Notes under the pieces: model-generated | Databases searched by the model: none | Seen by the model: only the letters and a program-made list of their open reading frames with translations | Told to the model about the DNA's origin: nothing | DNA from: Candidatus Nanoarchaeia archaeon | Lineage (GTDB): Archaea; Nanobdellota; Nanobdellia; SCGC-AAA011-G17; GW2011-AR17 | Assembly: GCA_028706745.1 (NCBI GenBank) | Contig: JAQTVM010000009.1 | Span: 1-56,282 of the forward strand | Reading direction: 5' to 3' | DNA length: 56,282 bases | Part shown: one piece after another, positions 39,999 to 49,441 of the stretch | Layout: the number at the start of each line of letters is the position of its first letter | Numbering within the stretch: position 1 is the first letter of the stretch | Made by a program: the position numbers and the translations under genes

Positions 39999-42900
39999 TT
40001 ACTTCTTGTTCTTATGCCTTATATGTATAAAATGGCTCAGATAAATCGCTTCCACAATGCACGCTGCAAAAAGCACTGCAAGCAGTGAAATCCAAGGGGC
40101 TTTCATTGCATACCACGGCTCAGGCGCCTTCTGCTCTTCATCAGGAACTTCAACAGCAGAAGCAGTAATCTCTTCTATTTTAGACGCTTCAATTACAGGC
40201 TCCGGCTCTTTTGCTTCAACTGCCTTCTTTGATATTGCAAACACCGAGAATCCTCCGACAGATGCAGTATAGTAATGCAAATCTTCTTTTTTCATCAAAT
40301 AAGAAGTCGGCATCTCAATCCAGCTTTCTTCATTGAACCTGAGCAAAACAACATCGTCTTTCAAAATCCCGTTTTCCAAAAGCCAAGTGCTTGGGATATT
40401 AAACACAACTTCTGCATTCACAATGTCCTTTGCCTGTATTCCTGTGGAAATATCCAAATACTTGTAAACAGGGAAAGAAACAGATGAAACAGAAGAAGGC
40501 TGCTCTTTCAATGCAGTAACCTGCACTCTTGCCTGAGGTATATCAGAAGCAACATCTATTGTTACAGAAGTGACAGGAATCTCATTATTTGCTATTGAAA
40601 CAACAGCGGGATTTGAAGGCGAGACATCATTTACAATAAAGCTCGCATAGTTGCTTAAGGCAGACACAGAGCCGCCTCCACCTCCGCCGCCTCCGCCTGA
40701 AGAAGTAGTTGCTGCGCAGGCACCGCAGTCAGCAGGGCAGGATGAGCAGGTATCGCTTCCGTCGCATACGCCGTTTCCGCAGCAGTTGTTTGCAGTAAAA
40801 GTACCAGTTGTCAAGTTCATATAATTCTGGCTGTTCAGGGAATAAAGCTTGTAAGTTATTGTGCCGCATCCTGTTTCATTCCACGAATAGCTGTAATTTG
40901 CCATTGATGAATTAGGCATCGTGATATTTGTGCCGTTATGGTTCAGATAAACTGTCAAAGGCTGCCATTGGTCATAGATGTATGCAGTTATTGTCTGCCT
41001 GTCTCCTGAAGAAACAGCAGATGAAAATGAAACAGATTTTACCCTCGGCTCGTCTGATGTGTCATTTGCAATAAAAGAAGCAGATGTTGAATTTGAATTT
41101 CCTGCAGAGTCAAAAGCATATATTGTGAAATTAATTGTACCGTTGTTCATCGGCGTGTAGGAATAGCTGAAGTTTGAAGATGAATTGCTCATTGTGTAAT
41201 TCACAGAGGAAAATGAAATGTTTGCATATGACAGATGCGAATCGCTTATGTTCAGGCTGATGCTTTGCTCATCCCCAAGTTCGATTAAGGCAGTATAGGA
41301 AAGCCCGTAATAAGATGGGGGCGCAGTGTCTATGCTAAGGCTGAAGTTTGAAGAAGCAAAGTCACACCTGTCTGAAGTGCAGGCATAGCAGTTCCATTCA
41401 TAGCTTCCTTCACTTAAGTTAAATTGCCATGCGCTTGAATTAGAGTTTCCGGTAATATTTGCTGTCCTGTTTGCATGCCACGAGCTGTTAAAGTTGCCGT
41501 AAAGCGTAATATTCACAAGCTCCTGACTGTTTGAAACAGAGCAGTTGAATATCTGTGAGATATTATTTGAAATTAGGGCATTTTCAGGCGCATTAAGGCT
41601 TACAGGTATTGCAGAGGATATTGTCAAATTCACTTTTGCACTGTCATTCCTCTTGTAATCAGTCGTGTAAATCACAAAGAATGCATAAGTGTCATTCGCA
41701 TCTCCGGTCACATTCACTTCCCACGTTGTTGTGCATATATCCCCTTTTACAATATGCGACAAGCAGGAAGCATTATGCGGGTTAGGAGTCAAAGAGTAAA
41801 ACGGTTTTGCTCCGGCTGTTGTCGGGATAATCCCTTTTGAATTAATTCCGGAAAGCGCATCAATCCGCGGGAAAGACAATTTGCTTGAAGAGTCATAAAT
41901 CATCTCTCCTGAAGTTATTATATTGTGCTTTAATTCTTCAGCAGTCAGGTTTCTTGAGAATTTTAATTTGGCATACTGCTTTAATAACAAAGCCAAGGCA
42001 GCGGCGTGTGGTGTGGACATGGAAGTGCCTGTATATGCAACATGCCCGCCTGTATATTTTGTTGCTTCAATTGAAACACCGGGAGCAAGCAAATCAAGCA
42101 CCCTCGATCTCATATATCTCAGAGAATCTGTGGAATCCACTGCTCCCACAGATGTAGCATTTTCAATGCATGCTGGACTTGAAATTCTATCGGTGTATTC
42201 AGGAATATTGCCTGATGCTACAAACACAGGAACGCCCACTAAAACAGCAGCATCAATAGAAGTCTTAAATAATGACTCATGATTACAATGAAAACTGGAA
42301 TTAAAAGTCCCCCCTAAGGACATTGAGATAGCAGTAATATTCAATTTTGTAGCATTTGCAACACACCAATCAATGCCTGCTGCAATATCTGATTCCCATC
42401 CTGAACCAGTGTTGTCCAAAGCTTTAATTGCAACTATCTTCGCATCTGGTGCAACCCCTTCATAACCAGGACCTTGTGAAGCTGCAATGCCTGCAACATG
42501 ACTTCCGTGCCCTTGGCCACCTAAATAATTATGATCGTCATAAGGATCTGAATCGCCATTGACATAATCATACCCCCCTACAACTTTAAGACAAGAACCA
42601 TCATTTATATTTACTGGTGTTATCCTTACACACCCCCCGAAATCAGAGTGTGAATAATTAATGCCTGTATCAATAATACAAATTGTTTCATCAACGCCCG
42701 TAATATTTATTCCATCAACTTGCGTTGCCCATGCCTTGTCAGCATTTATTTGTTGTATATTTTGTTCAACAAATACATGCACAGGCGCGTCATAATATAC
42801 AGCCTCAACGTTCGGATTATTTTCAAGTTCAGCTAAGGATTCTTTCGTAACCTTTCCTGAAAATCCATTAAATAAAGTATATTCATGTCTCTTTTCAAAG

Positions 42901-43625
42901 CCTTTATCCGATAAAGCAGAATATTCAGCAGCAGAGAAAGCCTCCTTTTTTCCTTTCGCTTTAACACCTTTCTGCTTCATAATTACAATAACTCCAACTT
43001 TTTTCTGCTCTTCAAGCATTGAATATATTTTTCCTTCTGCTTTTCCTTTGGTTATTTCTTTCTTAACAGCATTCACTTCAGGATCCAAAGTCGCAGTCAA
43101 GTTATAGCAGTCTGCTGAAAGGCAAGTGACAGACGAGGTAAAGGAAAACACCCTGTTCTTGGTAACATTGGAGGCAGATGTGTGTGAAACAAGAGAAGGG
43201 ATTAATCTTCCCTGCTCAAGAATACCTATATTATAGCTTCCGGTACTGCCGCTATAGAGGCTAATATTTACATAATAAGTGTCATTTATTTCAACATCAA
43301 AAACAATCCTAGAATTAAGCTGATAAGTATCTTCTATATTATTATTATAGTCTAATTGGCTCATACTTGAATTATAGAGGGTTATTTGTGTATCCATTGA
43401 GCCATATGTCTCTATCACATACTGCACGCCTGCAACTGCGCTAAAATTAACATAATCAACATCTCCTGCAACCTCAAAAGTATGTGCCTGCCTGCTCCCG
43501 TTAGTAAGAATAGTAGTTGCATTCTGCCATACGTTGTCTGGCTCATATTCATTTGAGGCAAATATCAGCGGCAGCATAAAGGCTAATAAGACAATTCCTA
43601 TAATGCCAAATATGAGCCTCTTCAT
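39999..43625 (-). CDS. Subtilisin-like (S8) surface protease with PGF-pre-PGF-like C terminus
   Basis: The 1208-aa precursor has a signal peptide, a PPC-like beta domain (about 26-135) and an I9-type propeptide region (about 205-285). The S8 catalytic residues are Asp319 (IIDTGINYSH), His373 (GHGSHVAGI), oxyanion Asn473 and Ser535 (GTSMSTPHAA). Long beta-sandwich repeats, a CCGNGVCDGSDTCSSCPADC segment, a Gly-rich linker, a PGF-pre-PGF-like domain (YASFIVNDVSP...; TASVGGFSVFAI) and a C-terminal membrane helix follow. CTTTATATAAA (about 43647) upstream suggests leaderless mRNA. It should process surface proteins. Nearby FG-GAP protein shares the C-terminal plan. Confidence 0.9.
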   Translation of the reverse strand: MKRLIFGIIGIVLLAFMLPLIFASNEYEPDNVWQNATTILTNGSRQAHTFEVAGDVDYVNFSAVAGVQYVIETYGSMDTQITLYNSSMSQLDYNNNIEDTYQLNSRIVFDVEINDTYYVNISLYSGSTGSYNIGILEQGRLIPSLVSHTSASNVTKNRVFSFTSSVTCLSADCYNLTATLDPEVNAVKKEITKGKAEGKIYSMLEEQKKVGVIVIMKQKGVKAKGKKEAFSAAEYSALSDKGFEKRHEYTLFNGFSGKVTKESLAELENNPNVEAVYYDAPVHVFVEQNIQQINADKAWATQVDGINITGVDETICIIDTGINYSHSDFGGCVRITPVNINDGSCLKVVGGYDYVNGDSDPYDDHNYLGGQGHGSHVAGIAASQGPGYEGVAPDAKIVAIKALDNTGSGWESDIAAGIDWCVANATKLNITAISMSLGGTFNSSFHCNHESLFKTSIDAAVLVGVPVFVASGNIPEYTDRISSPACIENATSVGAVDSTDSLRYMRSRVLDLLAPGVSIEATKYTGGHVAYTGTSMSTPHAAALALLLKQYAKLKFSRNLTAEELKHNIITSGEMIYDSSSKLSFPRIDALSGINSKGIIPTTAGAKPFYSLTPNPHNASCLSHIVKGDICTTTWEVNVTGDANDTYAFFVIYTTDYKRNDSAKVNLTISSAIPVSLNAPENALISNNISQIFNCSVSNSQELVNITLYGNFNSSWHANRTANITGNSNSSAWQFNLSEGSYEWNCYACTSDRCDFASSNFSLSIDTAPPSYYGLSYTALIELGDEQSISLNISDSHLSYANISFSSVNYTMSNSSSNFSYSYTPMNNGTINFTIYAFDSAGNSNSTSASFIANDTSDEPRVKSVSFSSAVSSGDRQTITAYIYDQWQPLTVYLNHNGTNITMPNSSMANYSYSWNETGCGTITYKLYSLNSQNYMNLTTGTFTANNCCGNGVCDGSDTCSSCPADCGACAATTSSGGGGGGGGGSVSALSNYASFIVNDVSPSNPAVVSIANNEIPVTSVTIDVASDIPQARVQVTALKEQPSSVSSVSFPVYKYLDISTGIQAKDIVNAEVVFNIPSTWLLENGILKDDVVLLRFNEESWIEMPTSYLMKKEDLHYYTASVGGFSVFAISKKAVEAKEPEPVIEASKIEEITASAVEVPDEEQKAPEPWYAMKAPWISLLAVLFAACIVEAIYLSHFIHIRHKNKK

Positions 43626-43664
43626 CCCATTGAGAATAATGCAGATTGCTTTATATAAATTGCC

Positions 43665-46211
43665 CTAGTGCTTATGAAACTTATGCCTGCGCTTATGCCA
43701 CTTTGCCTTAAATAAGACGACAACTGCAATCACGGCGAGAACTGCAATTAAGGCAATGTATAGCCAAGTATGATTCTGCTTTTCATCACTTTCAGGCGTT
43801 TCAGGCAGTGCTTCTTCAGGCTCTTCAACTGGCTTTCCCTCAACTTGATCTTCCACAATCTCTTCCTCAACCTCTTTCAATTCTTTCCCCGCAGTAATCG
43901 CAAACAAGGAAAACCCGGGCGTGATTGCCTCATAATATGCATTGGAAGCATCCTCTTTTACCTTGTTTGTAGTTAATTTCCTCCAAAAATTGCCATTAAG
44001 CCTCTGCAATACAACCTCATCTGCCTTGAACCCTTTCTCTTCAAGCCATTTTTTTTCAACTGAAAACTTAATCTTTGCTTCCTTTAATTTTCCTTCAAGC
44101 TTTGGCGCATTGATTTCAATGTATTCATTCACTTCCCCTAAAGGCGCAGAAACAAAAGAAAGCAATTCTGCCTCTTTTACAGCAATCTTTGCACTGCTTA
44201 TCTCTTCTGTTGTTGTAAATTCTATTTCATTCACTGCAATGCCGGTGAATTTAGCGGTTTCAGGAGAATCAGCAGCTATTAATGAGAATGTGTGCCCTGA
44301 TTGGACAATTCCTGTGCCTGATGAACCCAAAGGCGTTGTTGCACATGCGCCGCAGTCAGCAGAGCACGAAGTACAGGTTTCTGAAGCATCACAAGTTCCG
44401 TCACCGCAGTCAGCTGTGTTCGAAACAGACAAAGTGATATTATTTGAAGCAACAAGCCCATTGAAAGTATCATTCGCATAAAATGTGATATACTCAGTGC
44501 CGTACCAGTCAGCATTTGCAGTCAATGTAACAACATTAGTTGCTTCATCAACAGAGACAGACACATCTGCAGGAGTTGTCCACGTGATGTTTGGATTGTC
44601 GTTATTCACGTCAGAAATATATTGCGAGAGGTTGATTGTGATAAAAGTGTCTTCATTCCAAGATTGATTTGGAACAGAAGAGAGTATTGGAGGAAAATTA
44701 AGCGAATAAACATAAACCCTGCCTGTATTGTCTGCGGTGCCGCCGCTTAATGATGCGCCAATCTCGGCAATGGCAAAGCCATTATGGCTGTAATTATTGA
44801 AATTTACAGCCGCAGTACTATATCCATACAAATAATTTTTAACTCCTGTGCCATTAATACTAATGTTCGCATCCTCTGCTTTCGTTGACGCAAACCCTCC
44901 AGCATTGCCATAGATAATATATGCCTGCCCCATCTGGTTATGCTGCCCATAGCTTAAGTTCATCTGATTTGCTGTTGAAAGCAGGTCATCATACCCGTCA
45001 TTATTGAAATCAGCCAAAGTGAAAAATTCCCCAAAATGATTGCCGTCAGTGCTTGTGCCGTTTATTGTAATATTTGCCTGACGCCTGTTGTAATTCTGGA
45101 AGCCTGCAGGGCTGCCATAATAAACAAGTATTTGCCCCATATTAATATTATCAGCCCACGGATCTTTCCTTGCCGAGCGCGAGTTTACAACAAGGTCAGA
45201 AAGCCCGTCTGAATTTATGTCTCCAACACATACATTTTCCCCAAAATAATCTTCCTTATCCGTGCCGTTAAGCGTCAGGTTTGCCTGCTCAGAGGTATAG
45301 CTGTGAAATCCATCTGTGCTTGCATAATATATATGCACCTGCCCTGTATAATCCCTTGCACCCCCGCTCATATTTTTGCCCCTTGCCCCGATTATAAGAT
45401 CCTTTAACGAATCATTGTTCATATCAGCGGCATACAGGCTGCTTCCAAAATCAGCAGGCGTAGTTGCATTAAAAGTAACATTCGCCAAATCCGCAGAATA
45501 ACTGTGCAAGCCGCCTGTGCTGCCATAAAAAATATGCACCTGCCCATAGCCGTTTATCTTGCCGCCGCTAAGGTTTTTTGACTGAGCAGCAATAACTAAA
45601 TCTTTTATTGAATCGTTATTCAAGTCATCGGCAAGCATTTTAACACTGAAATATCCCGGTCCTGACCCATTAAAAGTAACATTCGCATTATCAGAGCTTG
45701 CACCAACAAGTCCATTTGCATTTCCATAGAAAACATACGCCTGTCCTGTAAAATCCCAGTTGCCTCCGCTAAGATTTTTATAATAAGAGCTGATAATTAA
45801 GTCCTTGTAGCTGTCATTATTCATGTCTTCAGCAAGAATTGTTGAGCCAAAAAGGCTTTTATAAGTCCCATTGAATACTACATTCGCATTATCTGCAGTC
45901 ATGCTTTGGAATCCGGCAATACCGCCATAAAAAACCAAAACCTGCCCTGTATAATCTGCTGCCCCTCCGCTAAGGTTCTTATAAGATGCGCCAGTTATCA
46001 AATCAACCCTGCCGTCATTATTTATATCTTCGGCAAGAAGCGGCCAGCCAAAATAACCTGGAGAAGTTCCGTTTATGACAGCCAGCTGCACAACAGCCGC
46101 ATCACTTCTTCTCACGATAATGTCTGCCGGAGTCACTGCAAATGATAAATATATTAATAATGCAAAAAGCATTGCAGATATGCAAAATAAGCACAACCTC
46201 TTTTTGTTCAT
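43665..46211 (-). CDS. Seven-bladed FG-GAP (integrin-alpha-like) surface protein
   Basis: From the ATG at 46211 the protein has 848 aa. After a signal segment come seven repeats of about 58-60 residues with FGxxLxxxDxNNDxxxDLIIxA...GQxxVFYG, the FG-GAP beta-propeller with Ca2+-binding DxNNDxxxD loops (repeats 1-6 have it, the last is degenerate). Next are a beta domain, a CGDGTCDASETCTSCSADC unit, a PGF-pre-PGF-like domain and a membrane helix with a basic tail. I prefer 46211 over 46253 because TATA-like TTTTTAAAG lies about 27 bp before 46211 and the extra residues would overlap the next gene. Probably a ligand-binding adhesin. Confidence 0.85.
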   Translation of the reverse strand: MNKKRLCLFCISAMLFALLIYLSFAVTPADIIVRRSDAAVVQLAVINGTSPGYFGWPLLAEDINNDGRVDLITGASYKNLSGGAADYTGQVLVFYGGIAGFQSMTADNANVVFNGTYKSLFGSTILAEDMNNDSYKDLIISSYYKNLSGGNWDFTGQAYVFYGNANGLVGASSDNANVTFNGSGPGYFSVKMLADDLNNDSIKDLVIAAQSKNLSGGKINGYGQVHIFYGSTGGLHSYSADLANVTFNATTPADFGSSLYAADMNNDSLKDLIIGARGKNMSGGARDYTGQVHIYYASTDGFHSYTSEQANLTLNGTDKEDYFGENVCVGDINSDGLSDLVVNSRSARKDPWADNINMGQILVYYGSPAGFQNYNRRQANITINGTSTDGNHFGEFFTLADFNNDGYDDLLSTANQMNLSYGQHNQMGQAYIIYGNAGGFASTKAEDANISINGTGVKNYLYGYSTAAVNFNNYSHNGFAIAEIGASLSGGTADNTGRVYVYSLNFPPILSSVPNQSWNEDTFITINLSQYISDVNNDNPNITWTTPADVSVSVDEATNVVTLTANADWYGTEYITFYANDTFNGLVASNNITLSVSNTADCGDGTCDASETCTSCSADCGACATTPLGSSGTGIVQSGHTFSLIAADSPETAKFTGIAVNEIEFTTTEEISSAKIAVKEAELLSFVSAPLGEVNEYIEINAPKLEGKLKEAKIKFSVEKKWLEEKGFKADEVVLQRLNGNFWRKLTTNKVKEDASNAYYEAITPGFSLFAITAGKELKEVEEEIVEDQVEGKPVEEPEEALPETPESDEKQNHTWLYIALIAVLAVIAVVVLFKAKWHKRRHKFHKH

Positions 46212-46607: not shown

Positions 46608-47225
46608 TTATTCTTTTCCTTTTTCCTTGTATCTTCCTCTTTCCTCGACTTTCTTAAGCCTTTTCTCAACAGCTGAAAAATCCTTAATCTCCTGCTTATA
46701 CCCTTCCATCACAGACGAAAAGCATTCCTCAAACTGCCTGTGGTGCTTGCTTGCAAGAGCCTGCTTTAATAAATGCAAATCAACAGCCTTGTCCTCCACT
46801 TTTGAAGAAACAAACCCCAATCCAAAATCAATAAAATACACTTTTTCGCGAACAATCATGTTTGAAGTGGTTAAATCTCCGTGAATTATGTCAAGATTAT
46901 GCAGTTTTGCAACCTTCTTGCCCACTCTTTTGAAAACATCCTTGCGTTCCTCTTTTGTCATTGATTCAACCAAATCACGAAGCTTATTCCCTTCAATGAA
47001 TTCCATCTCAATAACCATTGCCTTGTCACAAGACTTCAAAATCTTGGGCACAGGCACTTCAGAAACAGCCTTCTCAAGCAGTTTTGCTTCCTGCCTTGTT
47101 GTCTTCTGCCTTATTCTCTTGTCTATCTCAGGATGGCGGTATAGTTTCTTTATCCTTTCCTTGACAATCTTATTGCCATCTAACCAGATTATTGCTTCTG
47201 CTCCCTGCGCGATTTTTGTTTTCAT
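46608..47225 (-). CDS. Bud32/PRPK-type protein kinase (KEOPS subunit)
   Basis: The 205-aa protein is a small RIO-like kinase: GAEAIIWLDGNKIVKERIKKLYR (N-lobe), EFIEGNKLRDLV, the catalytic loop IHGDLTTSNMIV (HxDxxxxN) and FIDFGLG (DFG). Bud32 is the KEOPS kinase/ATPase needed for t6A modification of tRNA with Kae1. Kae1 is not in this window. It shares a palindromic TATA box with the DUF4389 gene and should be leaderless, since that box is centred 27 bp from its ATG. Confidence 0.92.
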   Translation of the reverse strand: MKTKIAQGAEAIIWLDGNKIVKERIKKLYRHPEIDKRIRQKTTRQEAKLLEKAVSEVPVPKILKSCDKAMVIEMEFIEGNKLRDLVESMTKEERKDVFKRVGKKVAKLHNLDIIHGDLTTSNMIVREKVYFIDFGLGFVSSKVEDKAVDLHLLKQALASKHHRQFEECFSSVMEGYKQEIKDFSAVEKRLKKVEERGRYKEKGKE

Positions 47226-47248
47226 AAAGAATATTTAGCGAGCAAGGG

Positions 47249-47256
47249 TTTATAAA
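47249..47256. promoter_or_regulatory. Shared palindromic TATA box of two divergent leaderless genes
   Basis: TTTATAAA is a perfect palindrome centred at 47252.5. The ATG of the plus-strand DUF4389 gene lies 26.5 bp to the right (47279), that of the Bud32 gene 27.5 bp to the left (47225). Both distances fit leaderless starts, so one box can direct both transcripts. Confidence 0.7.
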
Positions 47257-47278
47257 TATTACATGCGTAGTTATTAAC

Positions 47279-47551
47279 ATGAAAACGGAACGAAAAGAGG
47301 CATTCATGAGGATTATTGTCCTGCTTGTCTCAGGCATTATTCTGGGGATATGGAAAGGATTAATCCAGATACTTGTTGTTGTAAACTGGCTGATTGTAAT
47401 ATTCACTGCAAAAAGAAACGCAGGGCTTGCCAATTTCAGCGAATACTGGAACACTGAGATTTACAAGTTCATTAAGTATATGACATTTGTGACAAACAAA
47501 CGGCCGTTCCCGTTCAGCAATCTGGAAAGAATTTCTAAGTTTGGAAAGTAA
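47279..47551 (+). CDS. DUF4389 small membrane protein
   Basis: The 90-aa protein has one or two hydrophobic helices (about 12-41: IIVLLVSGIILGIWKGLIQI) and the DUF4389 hallmarks: NWLIVIFTAKRN, LANFSEYWNTEIYKFIKYMT and a final TNKRPFPF. The function is unknown; these proteins are membrane components in archaea and bacteria. The gene is driven by the shared TATA box at 47249-47256 and probably starts leaderless. Confidence 0.75.
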   Translation: MKTERKEAFMRIIVLLVSGIILGIWKGLIQILVVVNWLIVIFTAKRNAGLANFSEYWNTEIYKFIKYMTFVTNKRPFPFSNLERISKFGK

Positions 47552-47845
47552 AGGGGGCAATCTCACTACGTTCGAAGCTTCCCTTCGCTTTCGCTCGGTA
47601 AGCAAGGGGGTGCCCTTGAAACCCTTCCCGGGAATACCATAAGCTTAATATATACCGGGAATCCCGGTAAAAACAAAGGGTTCGCTCATTATTTATACTT
47701 TTTTTGTATAAAATAAACAATTTCCTGCCATTTTTATACTATTTATGTATAAAACAAAAAATAGATTCTCCATTAGGTTGATAGTTGTCAACAAACAGTT
47801 GATATTCATAAATGTTTCGGGAACGCAGTATGAACGCGCCCTATG
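47552..47845. other. Palindrome-rich AT-biased intergenic region
   Basis: No gene is seen here. It holds a CTCACTACGTTCG mosaic tract (47565-47605), a 15-bp palindrome ACCGGGAATCCCGGT (47654-47668), two TTTATAC-N7-GTATAAA palindromes (47692 and 47733) and GTTGATAGTTGTCAAC (47777-47792). The first is near the end of DUF4389, the others lie downstream of the small ORF at 47846. Base use differs from the neighbours. Confidence 0.6.
47692..47753. promoter_or_regulatory. Pair of identical-format palindromes TTTATAC-N7-GTATAAA
   Basis: Copy 1: 47692-47712; copy 2: 47733-47753. Each is 21 bp with 7-bp arms and a 7-bp spacer; they start 41 bp apart, close to four helical turns, so two dimers would bind on one DNA face. 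The arms contain TATA-like sequence. Binding protein and target gene are unknown. Confidence 0.55.
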
Positions 47846-48079: not shown

Positions 48080-49441
48080 CTACATCCCAAACCCTTTCGG
48101 AAGCCTGCCCTTCATCTTCTTCATCATCTTGTTCATGTCCTGCTCGTTTTCCAGGCCCTTCATTCCCTTAATCATCTTCCTGCTCATCTTGTACTGCTTC
48201 AATAGTTCGCGAACAGCGCCTGTAGAAGCTCCGGAGCCTTTTGCAATCCTTTCAACGCGGGCGCCGTCAATCAAATCAGGATCTTCCAATTCCTCTTTAG
48301 TCATGCTCTGCATTATGTGCTTCCAAACCTCAATCTTGCCTTCCTGCCCTTCAAGCATTTCCTTGGGTATTTTCAAATTCCCAAAACCGGGAATCATGTC
48401 AACTAATTTAGTCAAAGAGCCCATCTTCTTCATTGCAGCCATCTGCTCGTACAAGTCAAGAAAATTAAACTCCCCCTTCAAAAGCTTCCGCCCCATGTCT
48501 TCCGCCTCTTCAGCAGAAATTGCCTCAGAAGCCTTCTCCAATAATGCCTCAATGTCGCCCATTCCCAACAAGCGCCCGACAAAGCCGGGAGGATTGAACT
48601 GCTCCAAATCATCAACACGTTCTCCAACACCAATGAACTTAACAGGAGCGCCTGTCACAGCGCAGGCAGTAAGAGCACCCCCGCCTTTTGCAGTCCCGTC
48701 CATTTTGGTGGCAACAACCCCGGTTATATGGCAGGAATCGTGAAACTGCTGCGCTTGCTTTAAAGCCGCTTGCCCAATATCAGCAGAAATAACAAGCAGA
48801 TTCTCATCGGGCTTGATATAATTATTCAAGTCCTCAATCTCTTTAATCAAATCTGCGCTCAATGCATCCCTTCCCGCAGTATCAATCAAAAGAACATCCA
48901 GCTTTGCAATGTCTTTTTCAAACGATTTATATATCTTTAAAGGATCCTTCTCTCCTTTCGCAATAAAGCACTTTGCCTCTATTCTCTTGCATATCTGCTC
49001 CAATTGCTCGGGCGCGGCAGGACGATGAACATCAAGCCCTATAGCCCCTACATGAAACCCCCTTTTCTGGTAATACTTCAGAATCTTCCCAATGGTTGTT
49101 GTCTTTCCTGAACCAAACAGTCCAACCATCATAATCTTGAACGGCTTTTTTGTAATCTCAATAGCTGTCTTCTCGCCGCCAAGAAATTTAACCAATTCAT
49201 CATAAACAATTTTTACAATAAACTCCCTTTGCGAAACTCCTGCAGGGGGCTTGTCATTCAAAGCCCTTCTTTTAATCTCCTTTGTCAGGTTAAAAACCAG
49301 CTGGACATTGACATCAGACTGAAGAAGCGCCCTTTGTATGTCGCGAACCAGCTCATCAATCAGCTTTTCATCAACAGTAAGCGACCTTGCTATCTTGGCA
49401 AGTGTGCCTTTCAGCGATTCCCCTAATTTCTCCAATACCAT
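48080..49441 (-). CDS. srp54: Signal recognition particle 54 kDa protein
   Basis: The 453-aa GTPase has an N-terminal four-helix bundle, the G domain (GLFGSGKTT 107-115, DTAGRD, TKMDGTAKGGG) and a methionine-rich M domain ending MKKMKGRLPKGFGM. SRP54 binds 7S RNA and signal peptides and docks on FtsY to target secretory proteins, relevant for the many exported proteins here. TATTTATAAG (49460-49470) lies 25 bp before the ATG, giving a leaderless mRNA. Another open frame follows the TAG stop in the same phase. Confidence 0.97.
   Translation of the reverse strand: MVLEKLGESLKGTLAKIARSLTVDEKLIDELVRDIQRALLQSDVNVQLVFNLTKEIKRRALNDKPPAGVSQREFIVKIVYDELVKFLGGEKTAIEITKKPFKIMMVGLFGSGKTTTIGKILKYYQKRGFHVGAIGLDVHRPAAPEQLEQICKRIEAKCFIAKGEKDPLKIYKSFEKDIAKLDVLLIDTAGRDALSADLIKEIEDLNNYIKPDENLLVISADIGQAALKQAQQFHDSCHITGVVATKMDGTAKGGGALTACAVTGAPVKFIGVGERVDDLEQFNPPGFVGRLLGMGDIEALLEKASEAISAEEAEDMGRKLLKGEFNFLDLYEQMAAMKKMGSLTKLVDMIPGFGNLKIPKEMLEGQEGKIEVWKHIMQSMTKEELEDPDLIDGARVERIAKGSGASTGAVRELLKQYKMSRKMIKGMKGLENEQDMNKMMKKMKGRLPKGFGM

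Follow-up and report, generated by a model that had tools for sequence, protein, structure and literature searches.

One palindromic TATA box between the divergent bud32 and DUF4389 genes of a nanoarchaeal genome: a probable two-way promoter and its recurrent geometry

The window, i.e., the whole stretch of 56,282 bp that was analyzed (contig JAQTVM010000009.1 of a Candidatus Nanoarchaeia archaeon), contains two divergently oriented genes separated by a short spacer. The bud32 gene (46608..47225, minus strand) encodes the kinase/ATPase of the KEOPS complex, and the gene on the other side (47279..47551, plus strand) encodes a small membrane-type protein of 90 aa with a DUF4389 domain. Both genes had been so named in a preliminary description made from the sequence alone, and these names were borne out by matches to TIGR03724 (E=4.5e-61) and PF14333 (E=7.9e-16), respectively. 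The N-terminus of Bud32 matches those of same-genus orthologues, and that of the DUF4389 protein matches its orthologue in the same-genus genome G017, which makes both start codons credible. The predicted transcription starts are leaderless and coincide with the start codons at 47225 and 47279. Upstream of bud32 and on the same strand lies the gene for SRP54 (48080..49441, minus strand; PF00448). No Rfam or tRNA elements were detected in the window at default thresholds.

The spacer between the start codons measures 53 bp (47226..47278, without strand) and would represent the whole shared promoter. It contains the palindromic TATA box TTTATAAA (47249..47256, likewise without strand), which is the proposed single TBP site for both genes. 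Its centre, at 47252.5, is located 26.5 bp from the ATG of the DUF4389 gene (47279, plus strand) and 27.5 bp from the ATG of bud32 (47225, minus strand), an arrangement which had been claimed before and can be read directly in the sequence. Each start codon thus has a TATA box ~27 bp ahead of it, and a Shine-Dalgarno-like stretch, as judged by eye, is absent before both ATGs, as is expected for leaderless genes. The further claim that the spacer lacks a second TATA box held when the region from 46900 to 47700 was scanned with a promoter matrix of the own genus (see below), which found no rival match for either gene. The minus strand has just one further match of at least 2 bits (2.7 bits), which falls within bud32 and downstream of the start of this gene. 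Further plus-strand matches of this strength comprise a shifted reading of the TTTATAAA box, one within bud32 (2.3 bits), and those at 47477 and 47644/47645, which are downstream of the start of the DUF4389 gene. The possibility that bud32 has a second promoter was considered and rejected, as no other minus-strand match is present upstream of this gene up to position 47700. In 342 kb of the own genome, the word TTTATAAA was counted 47 times; at this mean frequency, a given point would have it no more than 2 bp away with a chance of ~1 in 1,450, and it is likelier in AT-rich spacers.

To describe promoters in this genome, a purpose-written simple gene caller, which is blind to promoters, was run on the window and on stretches of the genome to which it belongs. 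Probable first genes of transcripts (n=192) showed a TATA element at about -30 to -24, with a peak at -30, and an A-rich BRE at -36 to -33, a pattern that was not found at operon-internal genes. Shine-Dalgarno-like words precede 49 of 79 operon-internal genes vs. 36 of the 192 first genes. A BRE+TATA matrix of 15 positions was then trained on 534 first genes of transcription units from three genomes of the genus. As 51% of these genes fit a leaderless model with the TATA element at about -30, leaderless starts would appear to be the usual situation in the genus, judging from the position of this element. In both directions of TTTATAAA, the TATA part of the score reaches the maximum of the matrix, 8.9. 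The full BRE+TATA score is 10.0 toward DUF4389 and 7.1 toward Bud32, values that are equalled or exceeded by 28 and 45% of the 534 first genes, respectively. Such scores were reached in only 0.1 and 0.8% of shuffled upstream regions and at 1.2 and 2.5% of operon-internal starts (n=240). The two directions differ in their BRE-side sequences: GCAAGGG (47242..47248, plus strand) toward DUF4389 is weak yet positive (BRE part +1.1 bits), whereas TGTAATA (47257..47263, minus-strand reading) toward Bud32 is poorer (-1.8 bits) and, therefore, the Bud32 direction may be weak.

The recurrence of this geometry was studied in a survey of 532 divergent gene pairs in 3,707,616 bp of the own and related archaea, comprising the own genome (707,608 bp, 101 pairs), two genomes of the same genus, five others of the family, four of the order, and 77 Bud32 loci. 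The latter were kept from 80 loci around Bud32 relatives in named archaeal records after removal of three that were copies of G017, G002 and G007, and as they were picked for Bud32, Bud32 pairs are over-represented in the survey. For the own genus, the score limit of the gene caller was lowered from 12 to 10; at 12, the bud32/DUF4389 pair is lost, as the score of the DUF4389 gene is slightly too low. In total, 34 pairs had spacers of 49-56 bp, vs. 14 with spacers of 41-48 bp and 15 of 57-64 bp (binomial p=6e-4, for a range that was picked after the data were seen). Among tandem genes, there is a slight shoulder at the same bin, with 103, 101, and 57 spacers of 41-48, 49-56, and 57-64 bp, respectively. 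The densest 8-bp window anywhere between 36 and 100 bp, an unstandardised scan statistic, was not significant against a linear null, since pair density rises toward 100 bp. All 34 pairs of the 49-56-bp class have a TATA box in both directions, and in 33 of them it is one common box, with centres at most 3 bp apart. Outside this class, TATA boxes in both directions were found in 13/19 pairs with spacers of 36-48 bp, 8/17 of 57-66 bp, 24/33 of 67-80 bp, 42/68 of 81-100 bp, and 40/76 of 101-130 bp, and a common box in two pairs at 57-66 bp and in none of the remaining ranges. Hence, the one-box geometry of bud32/DUF4389 recurs in 32 other pairs. The own genome contributes three of its 101 divergent pairs to the class, i.e., bud32/DUF4389, L040:16211/16263 (51 bp, TTTATAAA), and L046:14556/14610 (53 bp, TTTTTAAA). 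Spacers of 68-71 bp, which fall between the shared-TATA class and the wider spacers, are almost empty (1 pair of 532).

From the geometry of the own-genus matrix, a shared box would be expected at spacers of 50-55 bp, an expectation that was checked against data which had been inspected before. Of the 391 pairs from outside the own genus, 24 fall in this range, vs. 22 in both flanking 6-bp ranges combined, a modest excess (p=0.006). TATA boxes in both directions and in common were present in all 24, whilst a common box was found in 2/10 pairs at 44-49 bp and 5/12 at 56-61 bp; between 62 and 130 bp, 80 of 134 pairs have a TATA box in both directions and none share it. A caveat is that, at such a spacing, sharing is nearly automatic once each gene has a TATA box.

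A palindromic core is not the main feature by which the class stands out. Tandem promoters (n=352) already have a median reverse TATA score of 6.0, but their median reverse BRE is -3.2 bits, compared with +1.7 bits on the reverse side in the 49-56-bp class (62 directions). The class is, therefore, marked more by a second BRE than by the palindrome, and Mann-Whitney values for the symmetry of class vs. tandem promoters overstate significance because each pair is represented by two rows and relatives are not independent. Of 110 tandem promoters of the own genus, 10 have a reverse score of at least 7.1 and six a palindromic 8-bp core, and so the bud32/DUF4389 promoter is more symmetric than most. 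Its Bud32-side BRE is weak for the class.

Use of one TATA box in two directions has a precedent in archaea. TBP binds the TATA box nearly symmetrically, and the direction is set by contact of TFB with the BRE, which is cited as known in the part of the Pyrococcus furiosus study that concerns us here (Grunberger et al. 2019, PMC6640164). In that study, a BRE-TATA-BRE promoter of P. furiosus (PF1918) gave rise in vitro to both transcripts, the starts of which are separated by 49 bp, in "almost similar amount." In P. furiosus, a single TATA box of near symmetry, flanked by two BREs, drives transcription in both directions from starts ~50 bp apart (PMC6640164, in the part considered), and the bud32/DUF4389 spacer, which is known from its sequence, would resemble it in having one box for two directions. 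The predicted start-to-start distance at bud32/DUF4389 is 54 bp vs. the 49 bp at PF1918, and the resolved cases in P. furiosus, as far as that part of the text goes, are antisense transcripts of head-to-tail genes, whereas two leaderless mRNAs are predicted here. Head-to-head genes could not be discriminated according to the P. furiosus authors (same part of PMC6640164), whilst at bud32/DUF4389 the ATG-to-ATG distance reveals the arrangement because both mRNAs are predicted to be leaderless. Among the titles and abstract openings listed in a literature search, a two-gene version was not described beyond PMC6640164, and the words "bidirectional" and "divergent" are absent from the available part of a Haloferax start-site paper (PMC4983044). 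When the ATGs stand for the starts, the spacer has a single TATA box midway between opposite starts, as in P. furiosus, and its BRE-side sequences score +1.1 bits for DUF4389 and -1.8 bits for Bud32, vs. a class median of +1.7 bits for the reverse BRE.

Bacterial bidirectional promoters, in Escherichia coli and Salmonella, are reportedly also the subject of a further study by Warman and coworkers from 2021. In these organisms, polymerase can bind in two mutually exclusive orientations at a symmetric core element, and on the chromosome such promoters are commonest between divergent genes, according to the portions of two reports that were accessible (PMC12825309, PMC10268837). There, the common part is the -10 element recognized by a sigma factor and the starts are 7-25 bp apart, in contrast to the TBP site and the distance of ~54 bp at bud32/DUF4389 (same portions of PMC12825309, PMC10268837). 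In E. coli, the two directions showed no measurable competition at basal activity and marked competition once one side was strengthened (PMC12825309, accessible portion). Ordinary divergent archaeal promoters resemble the bud32/DUF4389 spacer in being short and in having a TATA box at the usual distance from each gene, but they differ in that these boxes are separate: with spacers of 67-130 bp, each gene has a TATA box in 106 of 177 pairs, and the box is shared in 0/177.

The preliminary description had also proposed that the common box ties Bud32 to DUF4389, and this part was not supported by a comparison of loci. In G017, the two genes are on different contigs in different surroundings. In that genome, a separate TATA box, the non-palindromic CTTAAATA (26.5 bp from the ATG, score 9.3), precedes the DUF4389 gene, whose start is at base 92 of the contig, and there is an overlap of 4 bp between bud32 and the end of another gene. 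Of the other genomes of the genus, G015 contains Bud32 but yielded no DUF4389 match, and G016 gave no Bud32 match and a weak DUF4389 match of 21 residues. At 94 other Bud32 loci (91 distinct), no DUF4389 was found at E<1e-6 in a tblastn search with the protein of the window, by which distant relatives would be missed. DUF4389 (PF14333) matches were obtained in 14 of 99 genomes of the order, 12 of them over the cut-off; the ten over-cut-off loci outside the own genome and G017, each of roughly 3 kb, showed no Bud32 match. The DUF4389 gene was called in seven of these ten loci, four times in tandem and three times in a divergent arrangement (spacers of 72, 77, and 91 bp). A conserved Bud32-DUF4389 unit was, accordingly, rejected, the pairing having been found neither in congeners nor at the other Bud32 and DUF4389 loci examined.

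In 10 of 14 other Bud32 loci of the family, SRP54 is upstream of bud32 on the same strand, in seven of them within 63 bp; in the window, DUF4389, on the opposite strand, therefore now interrupts that order. The sister genomes G001 and G002 have a different gene, of 195 aa, at the SRP54-bud32 junction, with a 55-bp spacer and TTTATAAA; the G002 copy of this partner has no Pfam match. Start codons and spacer of these two genomes are identical at 56 of 61 bases, whereas bud32 and the partner show 83 and 68% identity, respectively, at their third codon positions. A third gene is found at this junction in G012, with an 80-bp spacer. An account based on insertion is complicated by the fact that also in G015 and G017 bud32 is not directly behind SRP54; in G015, it is 5.7 kb behind, on the same strand. 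A second, partial C-terminus of SRP54 (L086:9877-9999; residues 412-452, 80% identity) is present in G015, 1.2 kb past the full-length SRP54 match, and is perhaps a rearrangement scar.

Partners also change elsewhere. Of 92 Bud32 loci, 26 are divergent and 43 tandem, 16 are at a contig edge or have no upstream gene, and 7 were not called. Seven of the 26 divergent loci have spacers of 49-55 bp and differing partners (the window, the sister species L006/L097, and L134, L143, L148, and L160). Beyond the window, this makes six Bud32 loci with a common TATA box, five of them independent; a scan of five non-window partners identified one as a glycosyltransferase and gave no Pfam match for the other four. 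Bud32 appears enriched in the class, with 5 of 24 independent non-window divergent Bud32 loci vs. 28 of 508 other pairs (p=0.012), but not when the comparison is limited to spacers of 36-100 bp (p=0.10). As to the other own-genome members, relatives of the L040 plus gene occur in three congeners, always preceded by a TATA box, and these loci yielded no relative of its partner; relatives of the L046 synthetase gene, likewise lacking the partner, are present in two congeners. A PAC2-family gene (L092:4192-4944; relatives in L279, L280, and L281) keeps its TTTATAAA promoter in all four congeners while the other side varies. Its GNAT partner is 53 bp away in G015 only, and in G017 a relative of this partner (48% identity) is divergent at ~0.75 kb. 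One class pair is kept between species, i.e., L136:11279-12501 and L160:5392-6616, with both proteins 62-65% identical, spacers of 53 and 55 bp, and a CTTAAAAA-type shared box; neither L136 protein has a Pfam match. Some pairs do last, yet capture and exchange are the usual picture, and partner turnover by promoter capture fits better than functional coupling.

From the positions, scores, recurrence and neighborhood differences observed in the sequence, we infer that the bud32/DUF4389 spacer is probably a two-way core promoter in which one TATA box serves two leaderless mRNAs, and which arose by promoter capture without selected coupling. TBP would bind the symmetric TTTATAAA, the direction would depend on the side at which TFB reads the BRE, and RNA polymerase would start ~26-27 bp from the box, at or beside the A of either ATG, resulting in two leaderless mRNAs off one TATA box. 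The spacing would be fixed because leaderless starts put each ATG one TATA-to-start distance away. With regard to its origin, the DUF4389 gene would have been placed between SRP54 and bud32 on the other strand, thereby cutting bud32 off from its upstream neighbor, after which the symmetric TATA box came to be used by both genes. The earlier proposal that TBP bound in either direction starts both mRNAs is thus retained as probable, in view of the TATA position in the genus, the two-way scores, the lack of a rival promoter and the 49-56-bp class, the mechanism itself having been shown in P. furiosus in vitro. The statement that the two transcripts are mutually exclusive "at a given moment" would hold physically, since one 8-bp box cannot be occupied twice simultaneously; such exclusion at one box need not have any regulatory role.

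Other explanations have to be weighed against this one. With the higher score on the DUF4389 side (10.0 vs. 7.1) and a negative BRE part on the other, the promoter could be a one-way promoter for DUF4389, its symmetric core being noise toward bud32, which would then be transcribed mainly from an unrecognised start, e.g., antisense through DUF4389 or by read-through from SRP54; the P. furiosus authors, in the part of their paper considered, assume second-direction transcripts to be non-functional antisense RNA (PMC6640164). This is improbable given that the bud32 ATG has a TATA box at -31, within the norm of the genus, and an unremarkable score (7.1 bits, higher than that of 55% of first genes), that the minus strand has no other match upstream of bud32 up to 47700, and that six other Bud32 loci, five of them independent, have equal geometry. 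Very unlikely is a selected switch, in which the common box couples Bud32 and DUF4389 through mutually exclusive transcripts. Although two initiation complexes of opposite orientation cannot sit together on a single TBP site and E. coli bidirectional promoters compete when strongly activated, these promoters show little competition at basal activity (PMC12825309, accessible portion), and the pairing was found neither elsewhere in the genus nor at the other Bud32 or DUF4389 loci examined, where Bud32 changes its partners.

The least credible possibility is that TTTATAAA occurs in AT-rich DNA by chance and that both genes are leadered or otherwise transcribed. This word is indeed common in the own genome, and many TATA boxes are partly symmetric, as is evident from the median reverse TATA score of 6.0 in the 352 tandem promoters. 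Coincidence, however, would have to account for the genus-norm spacing on both sides, for scores reached by only 0.1 and 0.8% of the shuffles, and for a geometry repeated in 32 other pairs.

Beyond the locus itself, we lean, by a narrow preference, towards the view that leaderless archaea of this group (records labelled Woesearchaeota, Nanoarchaeota, and Pacearchaeota) possess a discrete class of two-gene promoters with one symmetric TATA box, a BRE on each side, and ~50-55 bp between the start codons. The class would make up ~3-6% of divergent pairs (3/101 in the own genome, 34/532 in all) and turn over by partner capture, with Bud32 as a repeat user. The mechanism as such was known from archaea before, and to this are now added its use by protein-gene pairs at a fixed spacing in this group and the signs of partner capture. 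In P. furiosus, antisense noise and a neighbor's own mRNA could not be told apart at head-to-head genes, as stated in the part of the paper considered (PMC6640164), whereas leaderless genomes allow transcription starts to be located by the start codons, which fix the spacer, and shared-TATA pairs can therefore be counted from the genome sequence alone. If this view is correct, a few percent of the divergent pairs in dense archaeal genomes draw two mRNAs from a single, reused TBP site, and a symmetric TATA box is a ready landing place for rearranged genes. Shared-TATA pairs would also offer a clear test of the control of direction by TFB and the BRE.

Elsewhere in the window, genes for a subtilase (S8) and an FG-GAP repeat protein are located head to tail at 39999-46172, near the DUF498 and bud32 genes; judged by their families, both may be surface proteins.
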